Shown piece after piece: positions 12,054 through 20,658 of a DNA stretch of 43,616 nt. This DNA comes from a virus: IMG/VR virus record IMGVR_UViG_3300018868_001228, positions 1 through 43,616 of that record. One strand, 5' to 3'. Within the stretch, counting starts at the first letter, position 1, and each line of letters opens with the position of its first letter. A model generated the notes under the pieces. It saw only the letters and a list, made by a program, of their open reading frames with translations. It was not told the DNA's origin and did not search any database. Made by a program: the position numbers and the translations under genes.

Positions 12054-14102
12054 ATGAACACCACTTACCTGCTCGACGCTGTCAAGGTCGCAACTGAGGA
12101 AGAACTGAACGAATTGACCGCCGAGATGTATTCGGAAGGCGACGTCGCTGACGAAGTGCTCGAGGCCATCGAAGCCCGTCGTATCGAAATCGAACTGGCA
12201 GCTTCTGTCCCGACCGCAGCTATCGAGAAGTTCAAAGCTAGCGGTGCTAGCACGGCCAAGGCTTCGACGCCGGTCAAAACGAAAGAGCAGCTGCTGGCCG
12301 AGGTTAAAGCCCTGCGCGCCGACGTCATGGCCAAAATCGTAGCAAGCACCGACGCTGACGTGCTGACTACGATGCTGGTACCGGAACTCGACCTGGGCAC
12401 CCGCCATACCGACTACGTGGCGCTGCGTGCTGACGTCAAAGTTGCGGTCCAGGCTAAGCTCAAAGAGTTGACCGGTCACAAGCCGACTAGCGCCATGATG
12501 AAGGAACTGTTCCCGGAAGCACGCAAGTCGAAGAAGGTCAAATCGGTTTCGCTGACGCACCACGGTGTGGCCAAGCGGGTGGCCGCAGTCGAGGACGGCG
12601 ACCTGCGCCTGAACATCGACCTCAAATCCTGGCTGAAATGGGACGGCCTGAAGTGGAACACGCTGCGCGAAGCCCAACTGGCGACCCTGGTGCGCGGTAC
12701 CATCAACAGCGTCAAATCGGAAGCCGCGATGGCGCCGGACGCTGACCTGGACAAACTGGATGCGGCCGATTCCGACGCATTCCGCAAAGGTGTGGTGGGC
12801 GAACTGCAGACCATCGAGGCGATGCACGTTGAGCAGGTCGAACTGAACACGAACCCGCGCTACCTGGCTGTTGGCAACGGCGCAGTCGACCTCGCCACCT
12901 GCGAGCTCGTTCACGACCGTGACTTGCTGGTGACCATGTCGAACCCGACGAATTACAACCCGGAAGCACAGTGCCCTACGTTCCTGCGCGTGCTGTCGGA
13001 AGCGTTCGAAGGCCGCGACGAGGATATCGTTTACTATGAATTGATGATGGGCTATAGCATGCAAGCCAATCCTGCCGAACGTGCGATGTTTTTCCACAAA
13101 GGCGAAGGTACTAATGGCAAGAGCCTCTTGCTTAGCGCAATCATGAAAGTCCTGGGCGACTACGCGGTGTCGGTCAGCTACAAGGTCATCGCCGACGAGC
13201 CGGGCACCACCATGAACACCAGCGCTGACGCTGCGTCGCCGGCACTGCGTCGCCTCATGGCTCGCCGCGTGGCTTACATCGACGAAATGCCCTTGGGCGG
13301 TAACCTGCGTGACGCTGACGTGAAGCAGCTCGCGGGCGGCGGCGGTACTATCGCAGCCCGGGGCCTGAAGGAAGGCATCGTGGAATTCCCCGCAACGGCA
13401 GTGTTTCACATTGCTTGCAACAACATGCCGACTATTCGGCAGGCACAGACCGCGGTCTGGAACCGTACGTACCCGGTGGCTTACCTGAAGACCTTTGTGG
13501 AAGACATTACGCTGTCGGAAAAGCTGGCAGCTGAAAGCGAGGGAATCCTGGCATGGCTGGTACAGTGCAGTGAGAAATACCGCGCTATCAAAGCCGCTGG
13601 CCAGAAGCTGCGGGACTACATGCCGGCTACTGCCAAGGCGCTGCTGGAGCAAATGCAGGAAGAACAGAATCCGTTCACGGCTTGGATTGAGGACAACTGC
13701 GTAACCGGCCCGAAAGTGTATGTTTCGGTCAAAGACGCATACCGCGACTACATTGCACACCACAAAACTGTGTCGGAAGACAAAGGCAAAATTCGCTCGG
13801 AGAAGGCCTTTGTGACCATGATGAAGGCGTGCAAAGTTGCCGAGCACAAGGAGCAGTACATGCCTGCAGGACGTAAGGCTGCATTTGTGGGCATCGGATT
13901 GAAAGCAAATGTGGCAGGACTGGTGACGGTGGAGCCGATTGACACGAGCAGCATCACGACGTCGGTCGATGTGAACTCGGCGGAGTACAAAACCGCACGC
14001 GAGGCACGTGAGCCGCAGCCAGTACGCGAGGCAAAAGAAGAAGCCGCAAAAGAAGCAGCGAAGGCAGCTGCAAAGGCCGCAGCAGAAGCCGACCTGTTTT
14101 AA
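12054..14102 (+). CDS. D5/P4-family replicative helicase (primase-helicase C-terminal type)
   Basis: A superfamily 3 helicase of the phage/plasmid primase P4 C-terminal type, which unwinds DNA at the phage origin. Around residues 325-500 there is a D5_N-like region (YELMMGYSMQ), Walker A GEGTNGKS (about residues 350-357), Walker B VAYIDEM, motif C-like FHIACNNMP and arginine-finger-like VWNRTYPV. The N-terminal ~250 residues show no TOPRIM or AEP primase motif, so priming may rely on the host. The C-terminus is an Ala/Lys/Glu-rich helix. ATG 12054 is preferred over GTG 12042. The 16 iterons directly downstream are the probable binding sites. Confidence 0.85.
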   Translation: MNTTYLLDAVKVATEEELNELTAEMYSEGDVADEVLEAIEARRIEIELAASVPTAAIEKFKASGASTAKASTPVKTKEQLLAEVKALRADVMAKIVASTDADVLTTMLVPELDLGTRHTDYVALRADVKVAVQAKLKELTGHKPTSAMMKELFPEARKSKKVKSVSLTHHGVAKRVAAVEDGDLRLNIDLKSWLKWDGLKWNTLREAQLATLVRGTINSVKSEAAMAPDADLDKLDAADSDAFRKGVVGELQTIEAMHVEQVELNTNPRYLAVGNGAVDLATCELVHDRDLLVTMSNPTNYNPEAQCPTFLRVLSEAFEGRDEDIVYYELMMGYSMQANPAERAMFFHKGEGTNGKSLLLSAIMKVLGDYAVSVSYKVIADEPGTTMNTSADAASPALRRLMARRVAYIDEMPLGGNLRDADVKQLAGGGGTIAARGLKEGIVEFPATAVFHIACNNMPTIRQAQTAVWNRTYPVAYLKTFVEDITLSEKLAAESEGILAWLVQCSEKYRAIKAAGQKLRDYMPATAKALLEQMQEEQNPFTAWIEDNCVTGPKVYVSVKDAYRDYIAHHKTVSEDKGKIRSEKAFVTMMKACKVAEHKEQYMPAGRKAAFVGIGLKANVAGLVTVEPIDTSSITTSVDVNSAEYKTAREAREPQPVREAKEEAAKEAAKAAAKAAAEADLF

Positions 14103-14120
14103 GGTGTGACGTCGCAGAGA

Positions 14121-14144
14121 GGCCGCCTACGGGCGGCTTTTTTG
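14121..14144 (+). terminator. Intrinsic terminator after helicase gene
   Basis: GCCGCC-TACGG-GCGGCT arms followed by six T. Confidence 0.8.
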
Positions 14145-14220
14145 CGTCCGTACCGGTTGTAGTAGTCAAGCTGGCCAGGAAGAACGGGTGATGTGTTGAC
14201 CAGGGCCGGGGGTAAAGACA

Positions 14221-14592
14221 TTACAGACGTCGAGGCCAAATGTCTGTAACGGAGCTGGTCCAATGTCTGTAAAGCGCGCCGAAATTACAGACGTTTGCTC
14301 AACAATGTCTGTAACACGTCTGTATTGCTTCTTGGAAATACAGACGTCTACTGACATCCATACAGACATTTACAGACATATTACAGACATTGCTCCTAAC
14401 GTAAGCCATTGATTTATAAAGATATTACAGACATACAGACATTACAGACATTTTGGAAACGCCTTTAAGGAGAAAAATTAAATATTTTTCTTTTTTGCCT
14501 AATTTTTGTGCAGATGACCCGAAAAACTAAATATTTTTTCGCATAGCCAAATATAGGGGTCGAAAACGTCTGTAATGTCTGTATGTCTGTTT
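14221..14592. other. Iteron-containing replication origin candidate
   Basis: Sixteen copies of a 10-base unit close to (A/T)TACAGAC(A/G)T lie here: nine forward (starting 14221, 14285, 14338, 14360, 14370, 14381, 14425, 14433, 14442) and seven reversed (14240, 14263, 14305, 14316, 14566, 14575, 14583). Between the two clusters (14460-14560) is an AT-rich stretch with a direct repeat of TAAATATTTTTC, a good DNA-unwinding element. The unit shares the ACAGACAT core of the type I iterons bound by the P4 alpha primase-helicase. Position immediately after a P4-type helicase gene makes this the likely origin. Confidence 0.8.
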
Positions 14593-14593
14593 T

Positions 14594-14616
14594 GAGCCTC
14601 TCTCGGGGCTCTTTCT
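14594..14616 (+). terminator. Possible weak terminator at end of origin region
   Basis: GAGCC and GGCTC arms around TCTCTCGG, followed by TTTCT. The stem is short; it may shield the lysis genes from upstream transcription. Confidence 0.4.
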
Positions 14617-14640
14617 GCGGCCTGCCGCAGCCTTGGTCAG

Positions 14641-14680
14641 CCGGTTTTCGCTATACAGAGCTCTCACCCCGCAGGAGCTC
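14641..14680 (+). promoter_or_regulatory. Phage-wide motif with GAGCTC dyad before lysis genes
   Basis: CCGGTTTTCGCTATACAG is a motif copy. Two GAGCTC blocks (14658-14663 and 14675-14680) form an inverted repeat; the right arm contains the GGAG ribosome site of the small membrane protein gene at 14683. Confidence 0.6.
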
Positions 14681-14682
14681 GA

Positions 14683-14877
14683 ATGGTTCACGTTTTCATC
14701 TCTGTAGTACTGCTCCTTGTCATTGGTCAGGGGGTTGCCGGCCGCGCTGCCTATCTAGCTTTGCGCTCTGACCCGCATGACGCAGCCTACTCCTGGGCTG
14801 CACTCTTTGCGGGGCTCTTCTATTGCGCATCGGCGCTCGAGCTGGCAGTGGCCTTGGTGCTTTGTGCCTATACCTAG
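14683..14877 (+). CDS. Small membrane protein, holin candidate (64 aa)
   Basis: Two hydrophobic segments fill most of the protein (VFISVVLLLVIGQGVAG and WAALFAGLFYCASALEL...ALVLC), joined by a short polar loop. Size and two-helix layout fit class II holins or small pinholin-like proteins that time lysis by permeabilising the inner membrane. GGAG sits six bases before the ATG. It is the first gene of the lysis block, upstream of a coiled-coil membrane protein and the endolysin, which supports the holin call. No holin family motif can be named. Confidence 0.6.
   Translation: MVHVFISVVLLLVIGQGVAGRAAYLALRSDPHDAAYSWAALFAGLFYCASALELAVALVLCAYT
14862..14874 (+). promoter_or_regulatory. Phage-wide motif copy (TTGTGCCTATACC)
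   Basis: The motif copy lies at the very 3' end of the small membrane protein gene, 40 bases before the next gene. No dyad is evident. Confidence 0.45.
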
Positions 14878-14914
14878 CATTGCCCGCCCACTTACCCGAT
14901 TCCTGGAGCTGCTA

Positions 14915-15262
14915 GTGCCTACCCAAACTACCGAAACCCGTCTCGCGCTTGTCGAGGACCATCTCGACCGCAACGACCAGACGTTGGCGAGCATCGCTGA
15001 AACACTCAAAGCGCTGGCTCGCCTCGAGGCCCAAAACACGCGCATCGAAGACAAAATCACTCAACGGGACGCTGAGCAGAAGCAGTTTCGCGCTGACGTT
15101 GCCAATTCGTTTGCAGCCCTGGAAGCCCGACTCACGCCTATCGAAGGAGATATGCCCGACCTCCGCCGTATCAACAAAGCGGTCTGGGGCGCTATCCAAA
15201 CTATCGGCTTTTCGCTGTTCATCGCGGTCATGGGCGCTGCAGGCTTCAAGATTCTCCACTGA
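14915..15262 (+). CDS. Coiled-coil protein with C-terminal membrane helix (115 aa), XhlA-like
   Basis: The protein has a long charged helical region (residues ~5-80, heptad-like LARLEAQNTRIEDKI and ALEARLTPIEG) followed by one C-terminal transmembrane helix (TIGFSLFIAVMGAAGFKIL). This is the architecture of XhlA-type hemolysin/holin-associated phage proteins. The open frame extends upstream to 14777, but it overlaps the preceding gene; GTG 14915 is chosen because GGAG lies seven bases before it. Likely a holin, antiholin or holin accessory in the lysis cassette. Confidence 0.6.
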   Translation: MPTQTTETRLALVEDHLDRNDQTLASIAETLKALARLEAQNTRIEDKITQRDAEQKQFRADVANSFAALEARLTPIEGDMPDLRRINKAVWGAIQTIGFSLFIAVMGAAGFKILH

Positions 15263-15267
15263 CCCGT

Positions 15268-15302
15268 CAGTAGCTATACGAGGCATCTACTTCATAGGTG
15301 CC
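15268..15302 (+). promoter_or_regulatory. Phage-wide motif with dyad before endolysin
   Basis: CAGTAGCTATACGA is followed by GGCATCT/AGGTGCC, a 7-base imperfect inverted repeat ending three bases before the endolysin ATG. Confidence 0.55.
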
Positions 15303-15304
15303 CA

Positions 15305-16120
15305 ATGGCTACTAAAAAAGCAACTCTGCCCGACCCGACGCTGCCATGGCCCATCGCCCTGGCGGCTGTTGCGCTTATCGCTCAGAAAGAAGGCCTGCGC
15401 CTGGTGGCGTACCAGTGCATCGCCGGTAAATGGACTATTGGATACGGCGAGACATCGGGGGTGGTTCGTGGCATGCGCTGGACTAAAGCCCAAGCCGACG
15501 CGCGCTTCTGCGAGTCCCTCACCGAGTTCACCCACCACGTTCTGGAAAAGTGCAAGCGCACGCCAAATGAGAATGAACTGGGCGCGATGGTCTCCCTCGC
15601 ATACAACATCGGCATTCCCGCTTTCTCCCGTTCTACCGTACTGAAGCAGTTCAATGCTGGTAAGGACGCAGCGGCCGCGCGGGCCTTCTCGCTCTTCAAC
15701 CAATTCCTCAACCCTAATACCAAGCGCAAAGAGGTCTCGCCCGGCCTGGTAGCCCGTCGAGCTGCCGAAGCCGCTCTGTTCCTCACCCCTGTTGAGGACC
15801 ACGACGCCCCGACAGCTCCAATGCCGCAGGCAGTGTCCGGCGAATCCAGCCTGGCTAAGTCGCCTATCGCTCAATCTGGTGCAGTTACGGCTGGCGCCGG
15901 CGCATTGACGCTTCTCTCTACGGTCAAAGAGAACGCCTCGACCGTTGCGGACACAGCCTCGGCTATTGCACCGGTCGCTACGCAAGCTCGCGACGCTGTA
16001 CAGGCTGTATCCGGGTTCCTGGGCATCCCCACTCCGTATCTGCTCGCAACCGCCTTGCTGGTGGCCGGCATCGCCATCCTGGTGCATCGCTACAAGCAGC
16101 GCGCTGAAGGCTGGGCGTAA
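15305..16120 (+). CDS. Endolysin, GH24 lysozyme (muramidase) with C-terminal membrane segment
   Basis: A glycoside hydrolase 24 lysozyme that cleaves the peptidoglycan sugar backbone at lysis. The catalytic triad follows the Glu-8-Cys-5-Thr form: Glu29 in KEGLRLVAY, Cys38 and Thr44 in CIAGKWTIGYG, as in P1 and phage 21 lysozymes where Cys replaces Asp. The N-terminal helix (WPIALAAVALIAQ) is unusually hydrophobic. The ~165-residue enzyme is followed by an Ala/Ser/Thr-rich linker and a clear transmembrane helix (PYLLATALLVAGIAILV) with a basic tail, giving 271 aa, much longer than the usual ~150-170. Membrane tethering is therefore predicted. The stop overlaps the Rz start (TAATG). Confidence 0.88.
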   Translation: MATKKATLPDPTLPWPIALAAVALIAQKEGLRLVAYQCIAGKWTIGYGETSGVVRGMRWTKAQADARFCESLTEFTHHVLEKCKRTPNENELGAMVSLAYNIGIPAFSRSTVLKQFNAGKDAAAARAFSLFNQFLNPNTKRKEVSPGLVARRAAEAALFLTPVEDHDAPTAPMPQAVSGESSLAKSPIAQSGAVTAGAGALTLLSTVKENASTVADTASAIAPVATQARDAVQAVSGFLGIPTPYLLATALLVAGIAILVHRYKQRAEGWA

Positions 16121-16647
16121 TGGTCACCGCCGCCGTATCTCGCGCTCTGGGGGCGTTGCTGGAGTTCCTGGGCAGCATCCCTGCCATTGGCTGGCTCGTC
16201 ATCGCCCTGGTGTGCTGGGGCGCCTGGGGGCACCACCAGCAAGCCGTAACGCTGGCTGAGAAGCAGGCCGCCACCTTGGCTGCTGCTCGCGCCGCTACCA
16301 ATGCTAGCGAGAAGGCTCGAGCTACAGAGCAGCAACTCAATAATCGTGTTCAGGAGATTTCGGATGAACTCACCCAAGCTCAAACGCAGCGTGACGCTGC
16401 TGCTCGTGACGCTGCTCGCCGGCTGCGCGACCTCGCCGCCGCAAAGCGTACCGGTTCGGCTACCGCCGCCACCTGCGCAAGTTATGAAGGCCCCGCCGTC
16501 GCAGTCGTTCCAGACCAGGCTCGAGAAGCTCTTATCGACCTCGCCCGCGACGCTGACGAAGTGACCGGCCAGCTGGTGGCGTGCCAGGCCTACGTGCGTA
16601 ACGTCGTGCAGCTTGGTGCAGCTCAGCCTCGGCCCGCAGTTCGATAG
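16120..16647 (+). CDS. Rz: Rz-like i-spanin
   Basis: The inner-membrane half of the spanin complex that fuses inner and outer membranes in the last step of Gram-negative lysis. It has one N-terminal transmembrane helix (IGWLVIALVCWGAWG) and a long periplasmic Ala/Gln-rich coiled coil (residues ~40-110), then a C-terminal helix. At 175 aa it fits Rz proteins. The start overlaps the endolysin stop by one base. A complete Rz1 lipoprotein gene lies inside it in another frame. Confidence 0.82.
   Translation: MVTAAVSRALGALLEFLGSIPAIGWLVIALVCWGAWGHHQQAVTLAEKQAATLAAARAATNASEKARATEQQLNNRVQEISDELTQAQTQRDAAARDAARRLRDLAAAKRTGSATAATCASYEGPAVAVVPDQAREALIDLARDADEVTGQLVACQAYVRNVVQLGAAQPRPAVR
16364..16564 (+). 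CDS. Rz1: Rz1 o-spanin lipoprotein, nested in Rz
   Basis: A 66-aa outer-membrane lipoprotein embedded in the +1 frame of Rz. The start at 16364 (MNSPKLKRSV) gives a basic n-region, a hydrophobic h-region (TLLLVTLLAG) and a lipobox LLAGC; the mature part is Pro-rich (VRLPPPPAQ), as in known Rz1 proteins. Translation from 16301 would put a long non-signal extension in front and is rejected. GAG about ten bases upstream may serve as ribosome site. Confidence 0.85.
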   Translation: MNSPKLKRSVTLLLVTLLAGCATSPPQSVPVRLPPPPAQVMKAPPSQSFQTRLEKLLSTSPATLTK

Positions 16648-16713
16648 GGTCTCGCGCTTTAAAAAATCGCTAATACAACCCCAAAGAGTAGCCTTGCTAG
16701 CCGTGCTAGCATA

Positions 16714-16732
16714 GTAAATGATAATCATTCTC
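16714..16732. promoter_or_regulatory. Fur-box-like palindrome before small terminase
   Basis: The sequence around AATGATAATCATT (16717-16729) matches 16 of 19 positions of the classical Fur box, including the whole central 13-base palindrome. It lies 19 bases upstream of the small terminase ATG. A repeated GCTAGC pair (16696-16701, 16705-16710) sits just before it. No copy of the phage-wide CTATACG motif is found in this gap. Confidence 0.6.
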
Positions 16733-16750
16733 ATCTAACGGAGGCCGACG

Positions 16751-17335
16751 ATGGCTGCCCAAAAAACGAGCACCATTCAGCGGTGCGGTGCTAAGAAACG
16801 CAACGGAGAGCCCTGCCAATCTCCAGGCATGAAAAATGGCCGCTGCCGCATCCACGGCGGTAAATCGCCTGGCGCCCCGAAAGGTAACACCCACGGCTAC
16901 AAGCATGGTTTCTACTACAACGCTCTGTCGGCAGACGAACAGGCGCTCTGGCCGCAGGCCAAGGCCATGGGCAGCGGCCCGGCCGCCCTGGAAGACGACC
17001 TGGCGCTGATGCGGGTGAAATTGCAGCGGCTGCTGCGGGCATCGAACGACCCCGACATGGCGGCTCGCGTCGAGCAGGAAGTCGAGGTGATTATCAAGGC
17101 CGGCGTAGCTCCTTCGGGCGACGACCTGGGCGGCTACGACAAGCGCGAACTCAAGACGTCACTGCCGCGCATCGGTGCACTGATTATCGAAGCCGTCGAG
17201 ACCATCCGGAAGCTGTCGCTCTCTATCAGCCAGCTGAAGAAGGACGAGAAGGAACTGCTCGCAGACCAGCAGGACAACGACACTGAAATCAACGTGAACA
17301 TCAACGTGGTCAGCCCGCGCGGCGACATCGAGTAA
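16751..17335 (+). CDS. terS: Terminase small subunit-like protein with HGG zinc motif
   Basis: The N-terminus carries the pattern CGAKKRNGEPCQSPGM...GRCRIHGGKSPGAPKGN, in which three cysteines and a histidine could bind zinc, followed by NTHGYKHGFYY. Such HGG-containing proteins are common in phage packaging modules as small terminase or DNA-recognition partner. The middle and C-terminal parts are helical, ending in an acidic tail with ...INVNINVVSP. It lies upstream of the large terminase but is separated from it by four genes. A GGAGG ribosome site precedes the ATG. Confidence 0.7.
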   Translation: MAAQKTSTIQRCGAKKRNGEPCQSPGMKNGRCRIHGGKSPGAPKGNTHGYKHGFYYNALSADEQALWPQAKAMGSGPAALEDDLALMRVKLQRLLRASNDPDMAARVEQEVEVIIKAGVAPSGDDLGGYDKRELKTSLPRIGALIIEAVETIRKLSLSISQLKKDEKELLADQQDNDTEINVNINVVSPRGDIE

Positions 17336-17357
17336 CAGCCCGCTTTGTTTGCAGATT

Positions 17358-17387
17358 GCCCCGCCATGCGCGGGGCTTTCTGTTTTC
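17358..17387 (+). terminator. Intrinsic terminator after small terminase
   Basis: GCCCCGC and GCGGGGC arms, then TTTCTGTTTTC. Confidence 0.75.
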
Positions 17388-17399
17388 AGGGCGTGGAAT

Positions 17400-17448
17400 G
17401 CCGGTGCCTATACGAATAAACGGCAAGACGTTCGTTTAATGTTTATTC
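17400..17448 (+). promoter_or_regulatory. Phage-wide motif with dyad before serine recombinase
   Basis: GCCGGTGCCTATACGA (17400-17415) overlaps the start of an exact GAATAAAC/GTTTATTC inverted repeat (17414-17421, 17441-17448). The dyad could also be a recombination subsite for the recombinase. Confidence 0.6.
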
Positions 17449-17461
17449 ACCGGAGCCAACC

Positions 17462-18121
17462 ATGATTGAAACCAAATTTGTATCGTATGTCCGCGTATCG
17501 ACCCAGCAGCAAGGCCGCTCGGGCCTCGGCCTGGAAGCCCAGCAGGCAGCTGTCACCGCCTATCTGCAAGGCGCCACGCTGCTGGCTGAGTATGTCGAGG
17601 TAGAGACCGGCAAAGGGGCTGACGCCCTGGAGAAGCGCCCGCAATTGCGTGCAGCCTTGGAGATGTGCCGGCGCACCGGCGCAACCCTAGTTATCGCGAA
17701 GCTAGACCGCCTTGCTCGCAATGTGCACTTCGTCAGCGGCCTCATCGAGACCGGCGTCGACTTCGTGTGTGCTGACATGCCCCAGGCGAACAAGGTCATG
17801 CTGCAGATGTACAGCGTCATGAGCGAGTGGGAGCGTGACCAAATCAGCGCCCGTACCAAGTCCGCCCTGGCAGCAGCGAAGGCGCGCGGTGTGAAGCTCG
17901 GGACTCCAGCCAACCTTGTTCCCAACATCCAAGCCCGCCAGACTGCCGCGGATGCGTACGCGAGCAAGCTCGCCCCTGTAATCAAAGGATTGCAGGCAAA
18001 GGGACTGAGCCAGCGCGCCATGGCCACCGCGCTGACGGAGCTGGGTATCAAAACCCCGGCAGGCAAGACCACCTGGGCACAACGCCAGGTTGCCCTGCTG
18101 CTTGCTCGTATCCCGGCCTAA
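17462..18121 (+). CDS. Serine recombinase, resolvase/invertase family
   Basis: A small serine recombinase (219 aa) that breaks and rejoins DNA through a covalent Ser link. The catalytic domain has YVRVST with Arg11 and nucleophile Ser13, and the conserved IAKLDRLARN segment (Arg83, Arg86). The ERDQISARTKSAL helix follows, then a C-terminal helix-turn-helix-like end (GLSQRAMATALTELG). CCGGAG lies seven bases before the ATG. It sits inside the packaging cluster, far from the fibre genes, and I see no invertible segment next to it. It may resolve multimers or be a cargo gene. Confidence 0.85.
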   Translation: MIETKFVSYVRVSTQQQGRSGLGLEAQQAAVTAYLQGATLLAEYVEVETGKGADALEKRPQLRAALEMCRRTGATLVIAKLDRLARNVHFVSGLIETGVDFVCADMPQANKVMLQMYSVMSEWERDQISARTKSALAAAKARGVKLGTPANLVPNIQARQTAADAYASKLAPVIKGLQAKGLSQRAMATALTELGIKTPAGKTTWAQRQVALLLARIPA

Positions 18122-18331
18122 TCGCTCGATTTGATGGCAAACTGCCCCGCCGCGGCGGGGCCCTTGCCCACAGGGGGTGCCCCTCCCCCCCCCGCCCCCT
18201 CTTGGGAGCGCGCGTGGCCGGCGCTTGCCCCACCCGAGAGGCGAAAACAAATCAAATCCCTTTTGGCGCCTCGTGCATCGGCGTGTAAAGCCGGTGCCTA
18301 TACGTTATATCAACAACTCACGAGGTGCCTA
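18122..18331 (+). other. Intergenic GC-rich stretch with motif copy and spanning dyad
   Basis: No gene. It contains a GCCCCGCCGCGGCGGGGC hairpin (about 18144-18161) without a T tract and a run of ten C near 18187. The motif GCCGGTGCCTATACGT at 18290-18305 is preceded by GTGTAAA. An inverted repeat spans it: GGCGCCTCGTG (18265-18275) against CACGAGGTGCC (18319-18329), one mismatch; its right arm includes the ribosome site of the next gene. Confidence 0.6.
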
Positions 18332-18727
18332 ATGCAACAAATTATCTGCCAAGACCTTCGGACTCTGCTCGCCTGGGCCGTCGAACGGGCTATCGAGCCT
18401 GACACCGTGGTCGCGTTCCTGACCCCAACATACGACAACCTCCGAAATTGCGTGCACGAGTTGGACCACATCATGGACATCGCTGCTATTGACGGCAAGT
18501 TCTCTAGCATCGACCGAACCATGAAACTCAAGGATGGCGGCCGTATCATTTTTTACACGTTTGAGATGGTCAGCCGACTCTTTGGCGCCGAGTTCAACGA
18601 TGCAGCTATCCATGGCCTTTCGCTGGTGCCTGTCCAAGAGGCTAGCTGGTTCGTGCCGCGGATGTGGAGTCGCCTCCGCCGCGGAAAAGACGGCGAAAAG
18701 CTCAACATGATGGCATTCGCTGACTAA
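18332..18727 (+). CDS. Degenerate terminase large subunit-like fragment (131 aa)
   Basis: This protein aligns by eye, without gaps larger than one residue, to residues ~36-155 of the large terminase encoded 1 kb downstream. TPTYD (31-35) matches APTFD, LKDGGRIIFYT (66-76) matches LKRGGRIVFRT, and AAIHGLS (91-97) matches AGIDELD. The Walker A segment is absent and the Walker B acidic pair is replaced by His94-Gly95, so ATP hydrolysis is not expected. It keeps a good ribosome site (GAGG) and a motif copy, so it may be expressed. Either a decaying duplicate or a repurposed terminase-fold protein. Confidence 0.65.
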   Translation: MQQIICQDLRTLLAWAVERAIEPDTVVAFLTPTYDNLRNCVHELDHIMDIAAIDGKFSSIDRTMKLKDGGRIIFYTFEMVSRLFGAEFNDAAIHGLSLVPVQEASWFVPRMWSRLRRGKDGEKLNMMAFAD

Positions 18728-18745
18728 CGTAGCGAGGACCGCACA

Positions 18746-19069
18746 ATGAACAACCAAAACCGTTCGAACCCCTATCTCCCCGAGGACTACACCGCGCAGC
18801 TGTTGGCGCAGTATCCTGGGTCGCCGATGGCCCCCGTAAATTGCGCCAAAGCCCGAACAGCTCCCTGGTCAGATTTTGCCGGGAATACCATCGACGAAGG
18901 CGCCATAATCGGGCATCCCTCCGGCGAAGTGGGCACTGTCTTTTATGACGCAGCCGGGGAGTGCCTTACCGAATGCTGGCGCGTCAAATACCCCTCTGGC
19001 ATGTCCCGACTCTGCCTGCAAATTGGCGACAAGGGCCGTGCTGTCGTGATAACGCGGGGTGAAAAATGA
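18746..19069 (+). CDS. Hypothetical protein with terminase-derived N-terminus (107 aa)
   Basis: Residues 6-24 (RSNPYLPEDYTAQLLAQYP) match terminase large-subunit residues 185-203 at 14 of 19 positions. The remainder is unlike the terminase: a beta-rich domain (IDEGAIIGHPSGEVG, then CWRVKYPSGMSRLCLQI) of KOW-like look. It appears to be a fusion of a terL fragment with another small domain. It follows the 131-aa terL-like gene in the same order as the corresponding terminase segments, with about 100 bases of intervening terminase sequence missing. A GAGGA ribosome site precedes the ATG. It overlaps the next gene by ATGA. Confidence 0.6.
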   Translation: MNNQNRSNPYLPEDYTAQLLAQYPGSPMAPVNCAKARTAPWSDFAGNTIDEGAIIGHPSGEVGTVFYDAAGECLTECWRVKYPSGMSRLCLQIGDKGRAVVITRGEK

Positions 19070-19344
19070 GTTCCGCGACGCGATGGACTTTAGAGAGCTA
19101 CGGGAAGGGATATCGGCTTCATGTCCACTGGCGACTGTCCGAAGCTACGGTGGACCGCGCCCGAGAGCGCGTCCTCGACGATGGTGCGCGCGTGCTGGGG
19201 CGCCTGGTGTGCCTACATGAGGATGATTACCAAGAGGCGGTAAGCCTGCTCTCGCGAGGATTACTGCCCGTACGCCAAGTCATTCTGTCTACCCCGGAAA
19301 AAACCCTCTGCACGGGTGAAGAGGAACCAGTGGCGCTTTGGTAG
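19066..19344 (+). CDS. Hypothetical protein (92 aa)
   Basis: Unknown function. Predicted alpha/beta (WTLESYGKGYRLHVHWRLS, then a helix ATVDRARERVL). Its ATG overlaps the stop of the preceding gene (ATGA), so it is translationally coupled. It ends 22 bases before the large terminase. Confidence 0.6.
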   Translation: MSSATRWTLESYGKGYRLHVHWRLSEATVDRARERVLDDGARVLGRLVCLHEDDYQEAVSLLSRGLLPVRQVILSTPEKTLCTGEEEPVALW

Positions 19345-19345
19345 G

Positions 19346-19378
19346 GCTGTTCTCTATACGGGTCGATGAATATCGACC
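19346..19378 (+). promoter_or_regulatory. Phage-wide motif with dyad overlapping the terL start
   Basis: GCTGTTCTCTATACGG is followed at once by GGTCGAT-GAAT-ATCGACC, an exact 7-bp inverted repeat in which the terL ATG lies at the edge of stem and loop. No Shine-Dalgarno is visible. Confidence 0.6.
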
Positions 19379-20658
19379 TGAACCTCACCGAACCCCAACG
19401 AGAATTTGTCCTCTCGAAAGACAAATACCCCGCATTCGTCGGGGGTTTTGGTGCTGGAAAGTCGGAATCACTAGTCAACCGGCTGCTGCTCCAGGCCCTG
19501 CAGAACCCAAAGGGCCAGGTCGGCTACTTCGCCCCGACTTTCGACCTTATCCGTCTTATCGCCTGGCCGCGGTTCCTGGCAAAGTGCGACGAGTGGGGCA
19601 TCAGGGCAACGTTAAACAAGACGGAAAACATCCTGTCGCTCAAACGCGGCGGCCGTATCGTGTTCCGCACGCTCGACACCCCGGAGCGCATCGTGGGTTT
19701 CGAGATTTGCCACGCCGGCATCGACGAGCTCGACACCCTGAAGGAAGACCACGCCCTGGCGGCCTGGCGGGCTGTCAACGCCCGTGTGCGTTTGAAGACC
19801 CGCGACGGCTCGCCCAACACGGTATCCGTCGGCACGACGCCTGAGGGATTCAAGCTGGTCTACAAGCTCTGGGAATTTGACCCCAAAGAGGGATTCCGCC
19901 TGTACCGCGCGCCAACGCGCTCGAACCCATTCCTGCCGGCCGACTACGTCGCCCAGCTGATGACGCAGTACCCTCCGCACCTGCTGAAGGCGTATCTGGA
20001 AGGCCTCTTCGTCAACCTGGCTCAGGGTTCGGTATATCCGGACTTCTCGCGTGCGCTCAATGCTACGGATGTCGTCGCCCTGGGCATCCAGAACCACCAT
20101 GGCATGTTGATTGGTCAGCCCGAGCCTCTGCATATCGGCATGGACTTCAACAAGGGCCAGGGAGCTGCAGCCATCGGTGTGCTCCGCGATGGTCAGTTGT
20201 TCATCGTAGGGGAAGAGACCAAAACGGCCGACACCCCGGACATGATTGCTCGGCTCAAAAAACGCTACCCGGGACACCACATCACGGTCTATCCGGACGC
20301 CTCAGGCGCCCATGGCAGCAGCACGAACGCCAGCATGTCCGACCTGCGCCTTCTTCAAGAGGCCGGATTCACCGTCGTAGCCCGCGCCGCCAATCCGCGG
20401 GTGGTCGACCGGGTTACGTCACTGAACGCCTACATCCTGAATGCAGAAGGCGCCCGTCGCCTGCGCGTCAATGTCACGGCCTGCCCAGAGCTGACCCTGT
20501 GCCTGGAGCAGCAGGTATACGACAAGAACGGCGCACCCGACAAATCAGCGGGTAAGGACCACCTCAACGACGCCCTGGGCTACCTGGTCTACGCATTGTT
20601 CCCTATCGTGAAGCCGGTAGCTACACGTGAAACACAAATCATTCACGTAGGACGCTAA
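19366..20658 (+). CDS. terL: Terminase large subunit
   Basis: The packaging motor and nuclease that cuts concatemers and pumps DNA into the prohead through the portal. The ATPase domain has Walker A GGFGAGKS (26-33) and Walker B with Asp120-Glu121 in HAGIDELD; SVGTTPEG fits the coupling motif. The C-terminal RuvC/RNase H-like nuclease shows GMDFNKG, YPDASG and DHLNDALGY with the expected acidic residues. Its 430 aa are normal for the family. The start has no ribosome site and lies inside a small dyad only a few bases after the CTATACG motif, so the mRNA may be nearly leaderless. The portal gene follows directly. Confidence 0.93.
   Translation: MNIDLNLTEPQREFVLSKDKYPAFVGGFGAGKSESLVNRLLLQALQNPKGQVGYFAPTFDLIRLIAWPRFLAKCDEWGIRATLNKTENILSLKRGGRIVFRTLDTPERIVGFEICHAGIDELDTLKEDHALAAWRAVNARVRLKTRDGSPNTVSVGTTPEGFKLVYKLWEFDPKEGFRLYRAPTRSNPFLPADYVAQLMTQYPPHLLKAYLEGLFVNLAQGSVYPDFSRALNATDVVALGIQNHHGMLIGQPEPLHIGMDFNKGQGAAAIGVLRDGQLFIVGEETKTADTPDMIARLKKRYPGHHITVYPDASGAHGSSTNASMSDLRLLQEAGFTVVARAANPRVVDRVTSLNAYILNAEGARRLRVNVTACPELTLCLEQQVYDKNGAPDKSAGKDHLNDALGYLVYALFPIVKPVATRETQIIHVGR
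20613..20648 (+). promoter_or_regulatory. Phage-wide motif with dyad before portal
   Basis: GCCGGTAGCTACACGT lies inside the last codons of terL. ACGTGAA (20625-20631) and TTCACGT (20642-20648) are exact complements. The portal ATG follows 10 bases later with AGGA as ribosome site. Confidence 0.6.

Follow-up and report, generated by a model that had tools for sequence, protein, structure and literature searches.

Between the genes for the terminase small subunit (TerS) and the terminase large subunit (TerL) of a virus (IMG/VR record IMGVR_UViG_3300018868_001228; the whole stretch of 43,616 nucleotides is called the window here) lie two small genes, ORF1 and ORF2, and the question is whether they are debris of a terminase or working genes. 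An earlier note on this DNA had derived both from a second TerL with a destroyed ATPase site. We conclude, with a probability of about 0.85, that ORF1 is an expressed-looking, constrained pseudo-ATPase derived from the TerL core; ORF2 has another history. Much of the evidence comes from comparison with a divergent related phage, L028 (IMG/VR 3300028585_000035). The features of the locus, in window coordinates, are as follows.

16751..17335, plus strand: terminase small subunit (TerS) of 194 aa, which bounds the module on the left (PHROG phrog_1889, E=4.6e-10; 79% identity with L028)
17462..18121, plus strand: serine recombinase of the resolvase/invertase type, 219 aa, between TerS and TerL (Pfam Resolvase, 4.6e-27; 84% identity with L028, in the same place)
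18175..18304, plus strand: non-coding conserved stretch 5' of ORF1 (blastn and alignment)
18290..18304, plus strand: promoter-like motif GCCGGTGCCTATACG before ORF1 (repeated-motif count; copy of L028 in the alignment)
18322..18327, plus strand: Shine-Dalgarno-like GAGGTG for ORF1 (sequence reading)
18332..18727, plus strand: ORF1, 131 aa, putative pseudo-ATPase, homologue of the TerL ATPase core without Walker A (BLASTP, hhalign, Foldseek, simulations)
18611..18616, plus strand: codons 94-95 of ORF1, His-Gly at the place of the TerL Walker B Asp-Glu (alignment)
18671..18679, plus strand: R114-L-R116 of ORF1, aligned to TerL R140/R142 (hhalign of D6E with the TerL profile, conservation table)
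18734-18738, plus strand: Shine-Dalgarno-like GAGGA for ORF2 (sequence reading)
18746..19069, plus strand: ORF2, 107 aa, a TerL-derived N-terminal tag followed by a phrog_19209 domain (sequence comparison, PHROG)
18761..18817, plus strand: 57-bp tag (19 codons), copy of terL 19918-19974 (pairwise blastn, 75% nucleotide identity)
18851..19054, plus strand: phrog_19209 domain of ORF2 (PHROG)
19066..19344, plus strand: 92-aa ORF, remainder of a variable cargo slot (ORF call; Pfam and PHROG gave no clear match)
19366..20658, plus strand: TerL, 430 aa, functional-looking, Walker A/B and nuclease domain intact (Pfam Terminase_6N/6C; PHROG phrog_2, 3.6e-45)

The homology of ORF1 to TerL is established. 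Residues 22-122 align collinearly with residues 47-149 of the window's TerL over 104 columns by BLASTP (E=2e-6 in this single comparison), in agreement with the collinearity claimed in the earlier note. When ORF1 and its L028 orthologue were combined into a profile and this was compared by hhalign with a profile of 35 related TerLs, the match covered TerL columns 42-153 with a probability of 96% and P=5.4e-9; the TerL of phage D6E scored 2e-9 against the same TerL profile. A TerL HMM found ORF1 at 1e-5 (Z=50,000). As a control, the TerL profile was also run against 300 ORFs from the unrelated phages Sansa, Hedwig, Catdawg and Colwellia 9A. Two of them gave low values (8e-8 and 1e-4) and by their letters look like putative terminases of their own phages, and the third lowest value was 0.009. 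Conversely, the ORF1 profile matched only the ORF1 orthologue and TerL (up to 3.9e-13) in the whole records of its kin. The AlphaFold2 model of ORF1 (pLDDT 79, pTM 0.77) is weakest near residues 80-120, where block means are 56-73. With this model, ranks 1-15 of a Foldseek search of the PDB were all TerLs (T4, Sf6, P74-26, D6E); the top four had probabilities of 0.84-0.99, with E-values that were weak (0.01-0.1) but consistent. Hence both profile-profile comparison and structure prediction, proposed earlier as checks, point to TerL. About 110 residues are common to ORF1 and the TerL ATPase domain (Terminase_6N; D6E 5OE8, T4 gp17 2O0H, Sf6 gp2 4IFE, P74-26 4ZNL), with a like order of secondary structure, and the core is 24% identical to the window's TerL. 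In a tree of the core, ORF1 and its L028 orthologue group together with a support of 100. Their common stem is long (2.3 substitutions per site) and has no firm place among the TerLs, and the pair are not recent copies of the window's terL. Matches of ORF1 to SipA and similar proteins (0.01-0.06) were rejected as chance.

The ATP site of this core has been lost. The Walker A motif (GxGxGK[ST]) is absent from ORF1 and from the L028 orthologue, and TerL D120-E121 corresponds to H94-G95 in ORF1 and to Tyr-Gly in L028, so that the alignment agrees with the missing Walker A and the His-Gly at Walker B that had been read from the letters. Of the positions that at least 88% of TerLs conserve, both ORF1 proteins lack the whole P-loop, R101, P106, D120, E121 and D123, and both retain P57, G111, R140, R142 and N151 (TerL numbering). 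ORF1 ends at strand beta4, before the coupling motif TPEG and the RNase H-like nuclease domain; since lid, coupling motif and nuclease domain are all absent, it cannot serve as a complete subunit of the motor. One retained residue is of special interest. By hhalign of the D6E TerL with the TerL profile, D6E R158 corresponds to TerL R140 and thereby to R114 of ORF1. In D6E, R158 is a proven trans-acting arginine finger, and the R158A mutant is complemented by cis-dead mutants (PMC5727402); in T4, cis-dead subunits are taken up into the pentamer, where they slow packaging but do not abolish it (PMC8589836). Judged from its residues, ORF1 looks like an extreme case of a cis-dead but finger-bearing core, although R114 could also have been kept for folding.

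The surroundings of ORF1 were compared with those in L028, which has the same layout of TerS, recombinase, motif, ORF1, cargo and TerL. In most of the other relatives by TerS or TerL that were inspected, TerS adjoins TerL directly, and the module of recombinase, ORF1 and cargo is therefore an insertion of this lineage. A serine recombinase between TerS and TerL (17462-18121) is unusual in this TerL family. Of 80 relatives of the recombinase, only that of L028 lies next to a homologue of ORF1 or a matching TerL; relatives of the enzyme are common in other viral contigs, away from a matching terminase, and it is thus not a general carrier of ORF1. A search of window positions 14000-20000 against Rfam gave no match. 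Right after the primase gene (14303-14590), direct and inverted repeats of the ACAGACATTACAGACAT type are clustered and look like the iterons of a replication origin.

Both genes keep ribosome sites (GAGGTG and GAGGA), and a copy of a repeated motif precedes ORF1, as had been claimed. The motif, of the GCCGGTNGCTATACG type, occurs 22 times in the window against 4.2 +/- 2.1 expected, a count reached in 0 of 100 shuffles. Its sites span positions 1700-31116 (for example 4030 and 18290) and include copies shortly 5' of the genes for the recombinase (17400), TerL (19346, weak), portal (20613), scaffold (22566) and capsid (23221). L028 carries a similar motif, including a copy before the ORF1 orthologue. 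Because it often stands shortly before gene starts, the motif is read as promoter-like, and it is likely a phage-specific promoter element. The longer stretch around the copy at ORF1 (18175-18304) is 81% identical over 130 bp to L028 3805-3936, motif included, and a AGAGGCGAAAACAAATCAAAT block within it is perfectly kept; it could be a recombinase site, a terminator or a packaging signal. An inverted repeat, GAGGCG...CGCCTC, lies in the same stretch (RNA fold z=-4.4). In addition, at 18273-18329, GGCGCCTCGT 5' of the motif can pair with ACGAGGTGCC, which contains the ribosome site of ORF1. Through this predicted pairing, which is not conserved in L028, ORF1 might perhaps go untranslated from read-through transcripts.

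Close relatives of ORF1 are few. By tblastn it had no match in 50,697 phage and 72,556 plasmid records, and the L028 orthologue had none in the phage records; pattern scans of IMG/VR returned only L028 and a contig nearly identical to the window. Neither ORF1 nor this TerS turned up in the 84,980 genomes of bacteria and archaea that were scanned. No ORF1 family is present in Pfam, NCBIfam, PHROG or PADLOC, and the open-licence papers searched gave no description of a Walker-less TerL paralogue. Only two independent lineages of ORF1 are known.

Nevertheless, ORF1 is not alone in kind. Foldseek against viral models found several standalone proteins of 91-157 aa (probability 0.90-1.0), and four of these were placed in their genomes by protein length, so that the assignment of UniProt entries to genes is inferred: Sansa gp14 (L098 4960-5325), Catdawg gp4 (L105 824-1198, minus strand), Hedwig gp4 (L104 3569-3934) and Colwellia 9A COPG_00094. 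The first three are TerL-core-like and labelled hypothetical, and all four lack Walker A. Sansa gp14 (a Caulobacter phage, 122 aa) aligns with the TerL segment to which ORF1 corresponds (P=1.4e-4 with the TerL profile) and lies about 2 kb upstream of TerS, but it belongs to another phage group and does not match ORF1 directly in sequence (P=0.32). Catdawg gp4, from a Mycobacterium phage, belongs to phrog_6910 and resembles the TerL families phrog_7579 (7e-6) and phrog_9 (5.5e-4); a close homologue is annotated 'ASCE ATPase', and unlike ORF1 Catdawg gp4 retains a Walker B-like LDE. Hedwig gp4, from a Gordonia phage, matches phrog_6910 and phrog_3167. COPG_00094 found no support against the TerL profile. 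Like ORF1, the proteins of phrog_6910 and phrog_3167 are standalone, about 120 aa long and begin at helix alpha1 past the missing P-loop, but they lie at other genome positions and share no detectable sequence match with it: ORF1 matched neither family HMM, nor any PHROG below 0.2. ORF1 thus fits the description of a standalone ASCE-like core of about 120 aa without Walker A, and lacks a direct sequence match to these small proteins. Interference proteins of satellites (PICI Ppi and others) act on the terminase to change packaging, and they would resemble ORF1 only if its proposed action on terminase holds. To our knowledge, none of them is described as a copy of the TerL core.

ORF1 is best explained as the central RecA-like core, from helix alpha1 to strand beta4, of an ancient TerL copy that has lost the P-loop and the catalytic acids; it persists as an independent gene, behind a promoter-like site of its own, in the module between TerS and TerL. 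What it does can be proposed in outline. Made along with TerL and TerS, ORF1 may dock on the exposed subunit interface of TerL, where its trans-arginine could reach, or block, the ATP site of the neighbouring subunit. Assembly and firing of the motor, either the phage's own or that of a superinfecting relative, would then be delayed or damped. A packaging accessory at the TerL subunit interface is the role that we favour tentatively, at somewhat short of even odds; the decoy role suggested in the earlier note is possible. It is rather doubtful that ORF1 is a pseudo-terminase, a TerL core without an ATP site of its own but with the arginine finger, that acts in trans on TerL to set the timing or speed of the motor; if it is, phrog_6910/phrog_3167 and Sansa gp14 would be independent examples of such a regulator.

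The TerL-derived fold may instead have been recruited for a job outside packaging, such as DNA or RNA binding, or as a moron against host defence or superinfecting phages. We regard this as a real possibility, though one that we would not bet on. Similar small Walker-less ASCE-like phage proteins do exist; Catdawg gp4 sits by a methylase gene, such proteins are found elsewhere away from the terminase, and one partial match carries the annotation 'DNA binding protein'. ORF1 also diverges quickly: it is 40% identical between the window and L028, where TerS, recombinase and TerL are 79-85% identical, and this rate suits an accessory or conflict role more than a core packaging role. Its N-terminal part is variable too, with about 140 extra residues in L028 (3965-4390) that form an added domain. 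For this domain no family match was found beyond a weak one to pPIWI_RE_Y (E=0.004-0.008), and the full-length L028 model is poor (pLDDT 60). ORF1 moreover adjoins a variable cargo slot, occupied by phrog_19209 in the window and by a DUF4238 gene in L028 (4802-5974, on the opposite strand, between the ORF1 orthologue and terL); the DUF4238 protein weakly matches the PADLOC DUF4238 model. Against a job outside packaging stand the position of ORF1 between TerS and TerL in both phages behind the same class of motif, the TerL-specific arginines retained in both proteins, and a PADLOC defence search of ORF1 that gave no match.

As a specific anti-phage weapon, ORF1 would join the motor of a superinfecting relative and act there as a dominant-negative subunit. 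Its rapid divergence would suit such a use, its closest TerL matches belong to other phages (L077), and packaging by T4 motors suffers when dead subunits are mixed in (PMC8589836). The same T4 motors tolerate dead subunits, however; ORF1 lacks the portal-binding and nuclease parts, and, if expressed as predicted alongside the late genes of its phage, it would encounter that phage's TerL before any other. This use is unlikely.

Improbable, too, is a functionless remnant that is decaying after duplication of terL by recombination, the alternative left standing by the earlier note. Fast evolution, the loss of every catalytic residue and a genuine terL scar in the neighbouring ORF2 could be taken as signs of decay. 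The L028 orthologue argues otherwise. It lies between the recombinase and terL (TerL itself being 85% identical), encodes 273 aa without an internal stop, and in its C-terminal 130 residues shares 40% identity with ORF1 over 128 codons. Identity at codon positions 1, 2 and 3 is 0.58, 0.66 and 0.33; in neutral simulations of similar divergence, 0 of 500 were as skewed and 5 of 500 stayed open in both lineages. The skew and the open frames indicate purifying selection and not simple decay, so that the equal codon-position rates and accumulating stops expected of a pseudogene are not what is seen in these sequences. Both proteins stop at the same strand and have in common residues that are missing from TerLs, and ORF1 keeps its ribosome site and conserved upstream motif. 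The related phage thus holds an open, constrained copy and not a frame-disrupted one, which favours the earlier note's reading of ORF1 and contradicts its alternative. The near-identical contig (L002/L027) gives little information on selection. We therefore regard ORF1 as a probable functional accessory protein rather than a fragment in decay.

ORF2 followed a different path. Its tag, RSNPYLPEDYTAQLLAQYP, is identical to TerL residues 185-203 at 14 of 19 positions, as had been noticed, and at the DNA level 43 of 57 nucleotides agree (E=1e-8 pairwise). The tag is closest to the phage's own TerL; in L028 it turned up nowhere but in TerL, and the other phrog_19209 proteins showed no copy of it. 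It is joined to an unrelated domain: residues 36-103 match positions 4-72 of the 74 in the phrog_19209 profile (E=1e-18), a small domain for which IMG/VR yielded 23 further relatives, not counting the near-identical contig; the N-terminal TerL tag is seen in ORF2 alone. In L028 the slot of ORF2 holds the reverse-strand DUF4238 gene. A match of ORF2 residues 7-52 to a Vibrio phage (E=0.07) falls within a region of tail genes and was set aside as chance. Among TerLs, tag identity tracks core identity, and at a core identity of 0.24 it is predicted to be 0.31 +/- 0.08; the observed 0.74 is about 5 residual standard deviations off. The tag is thus younger and comes from an event separate from that of ORF1, and by its sequence ORF2 is an ordinary cargo gene whose N-terminus bears a small terL recombination scar. 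The order of the two pieces mirrors terL, as the earlier note said; their spacing is compressed, to about 9 codons from 28 residues in TerL. That ORF1 and ORF2 are halves of a single second TerL, expressed as decoys, is very improbable in spite of that order, given the mismatch of tag and core identities, the lack of the tag elsewhere and the unrelated common domain that makes up the body of ORF2.

Catalytically dead paralogues are common regulators of other ATPases and of kinases, and in the open-licence papers searched no such regulator of the phage packaging motor was found. ORF1, a constrained and cis-dead TerL core with its trans-arginine, raises a question that can be put to existing ATPase and packaging assays. 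If the proposed accessory role is true, it would provide the first function for many small Walker-less TerL-like phage proteins that are now labelled hypothetical.
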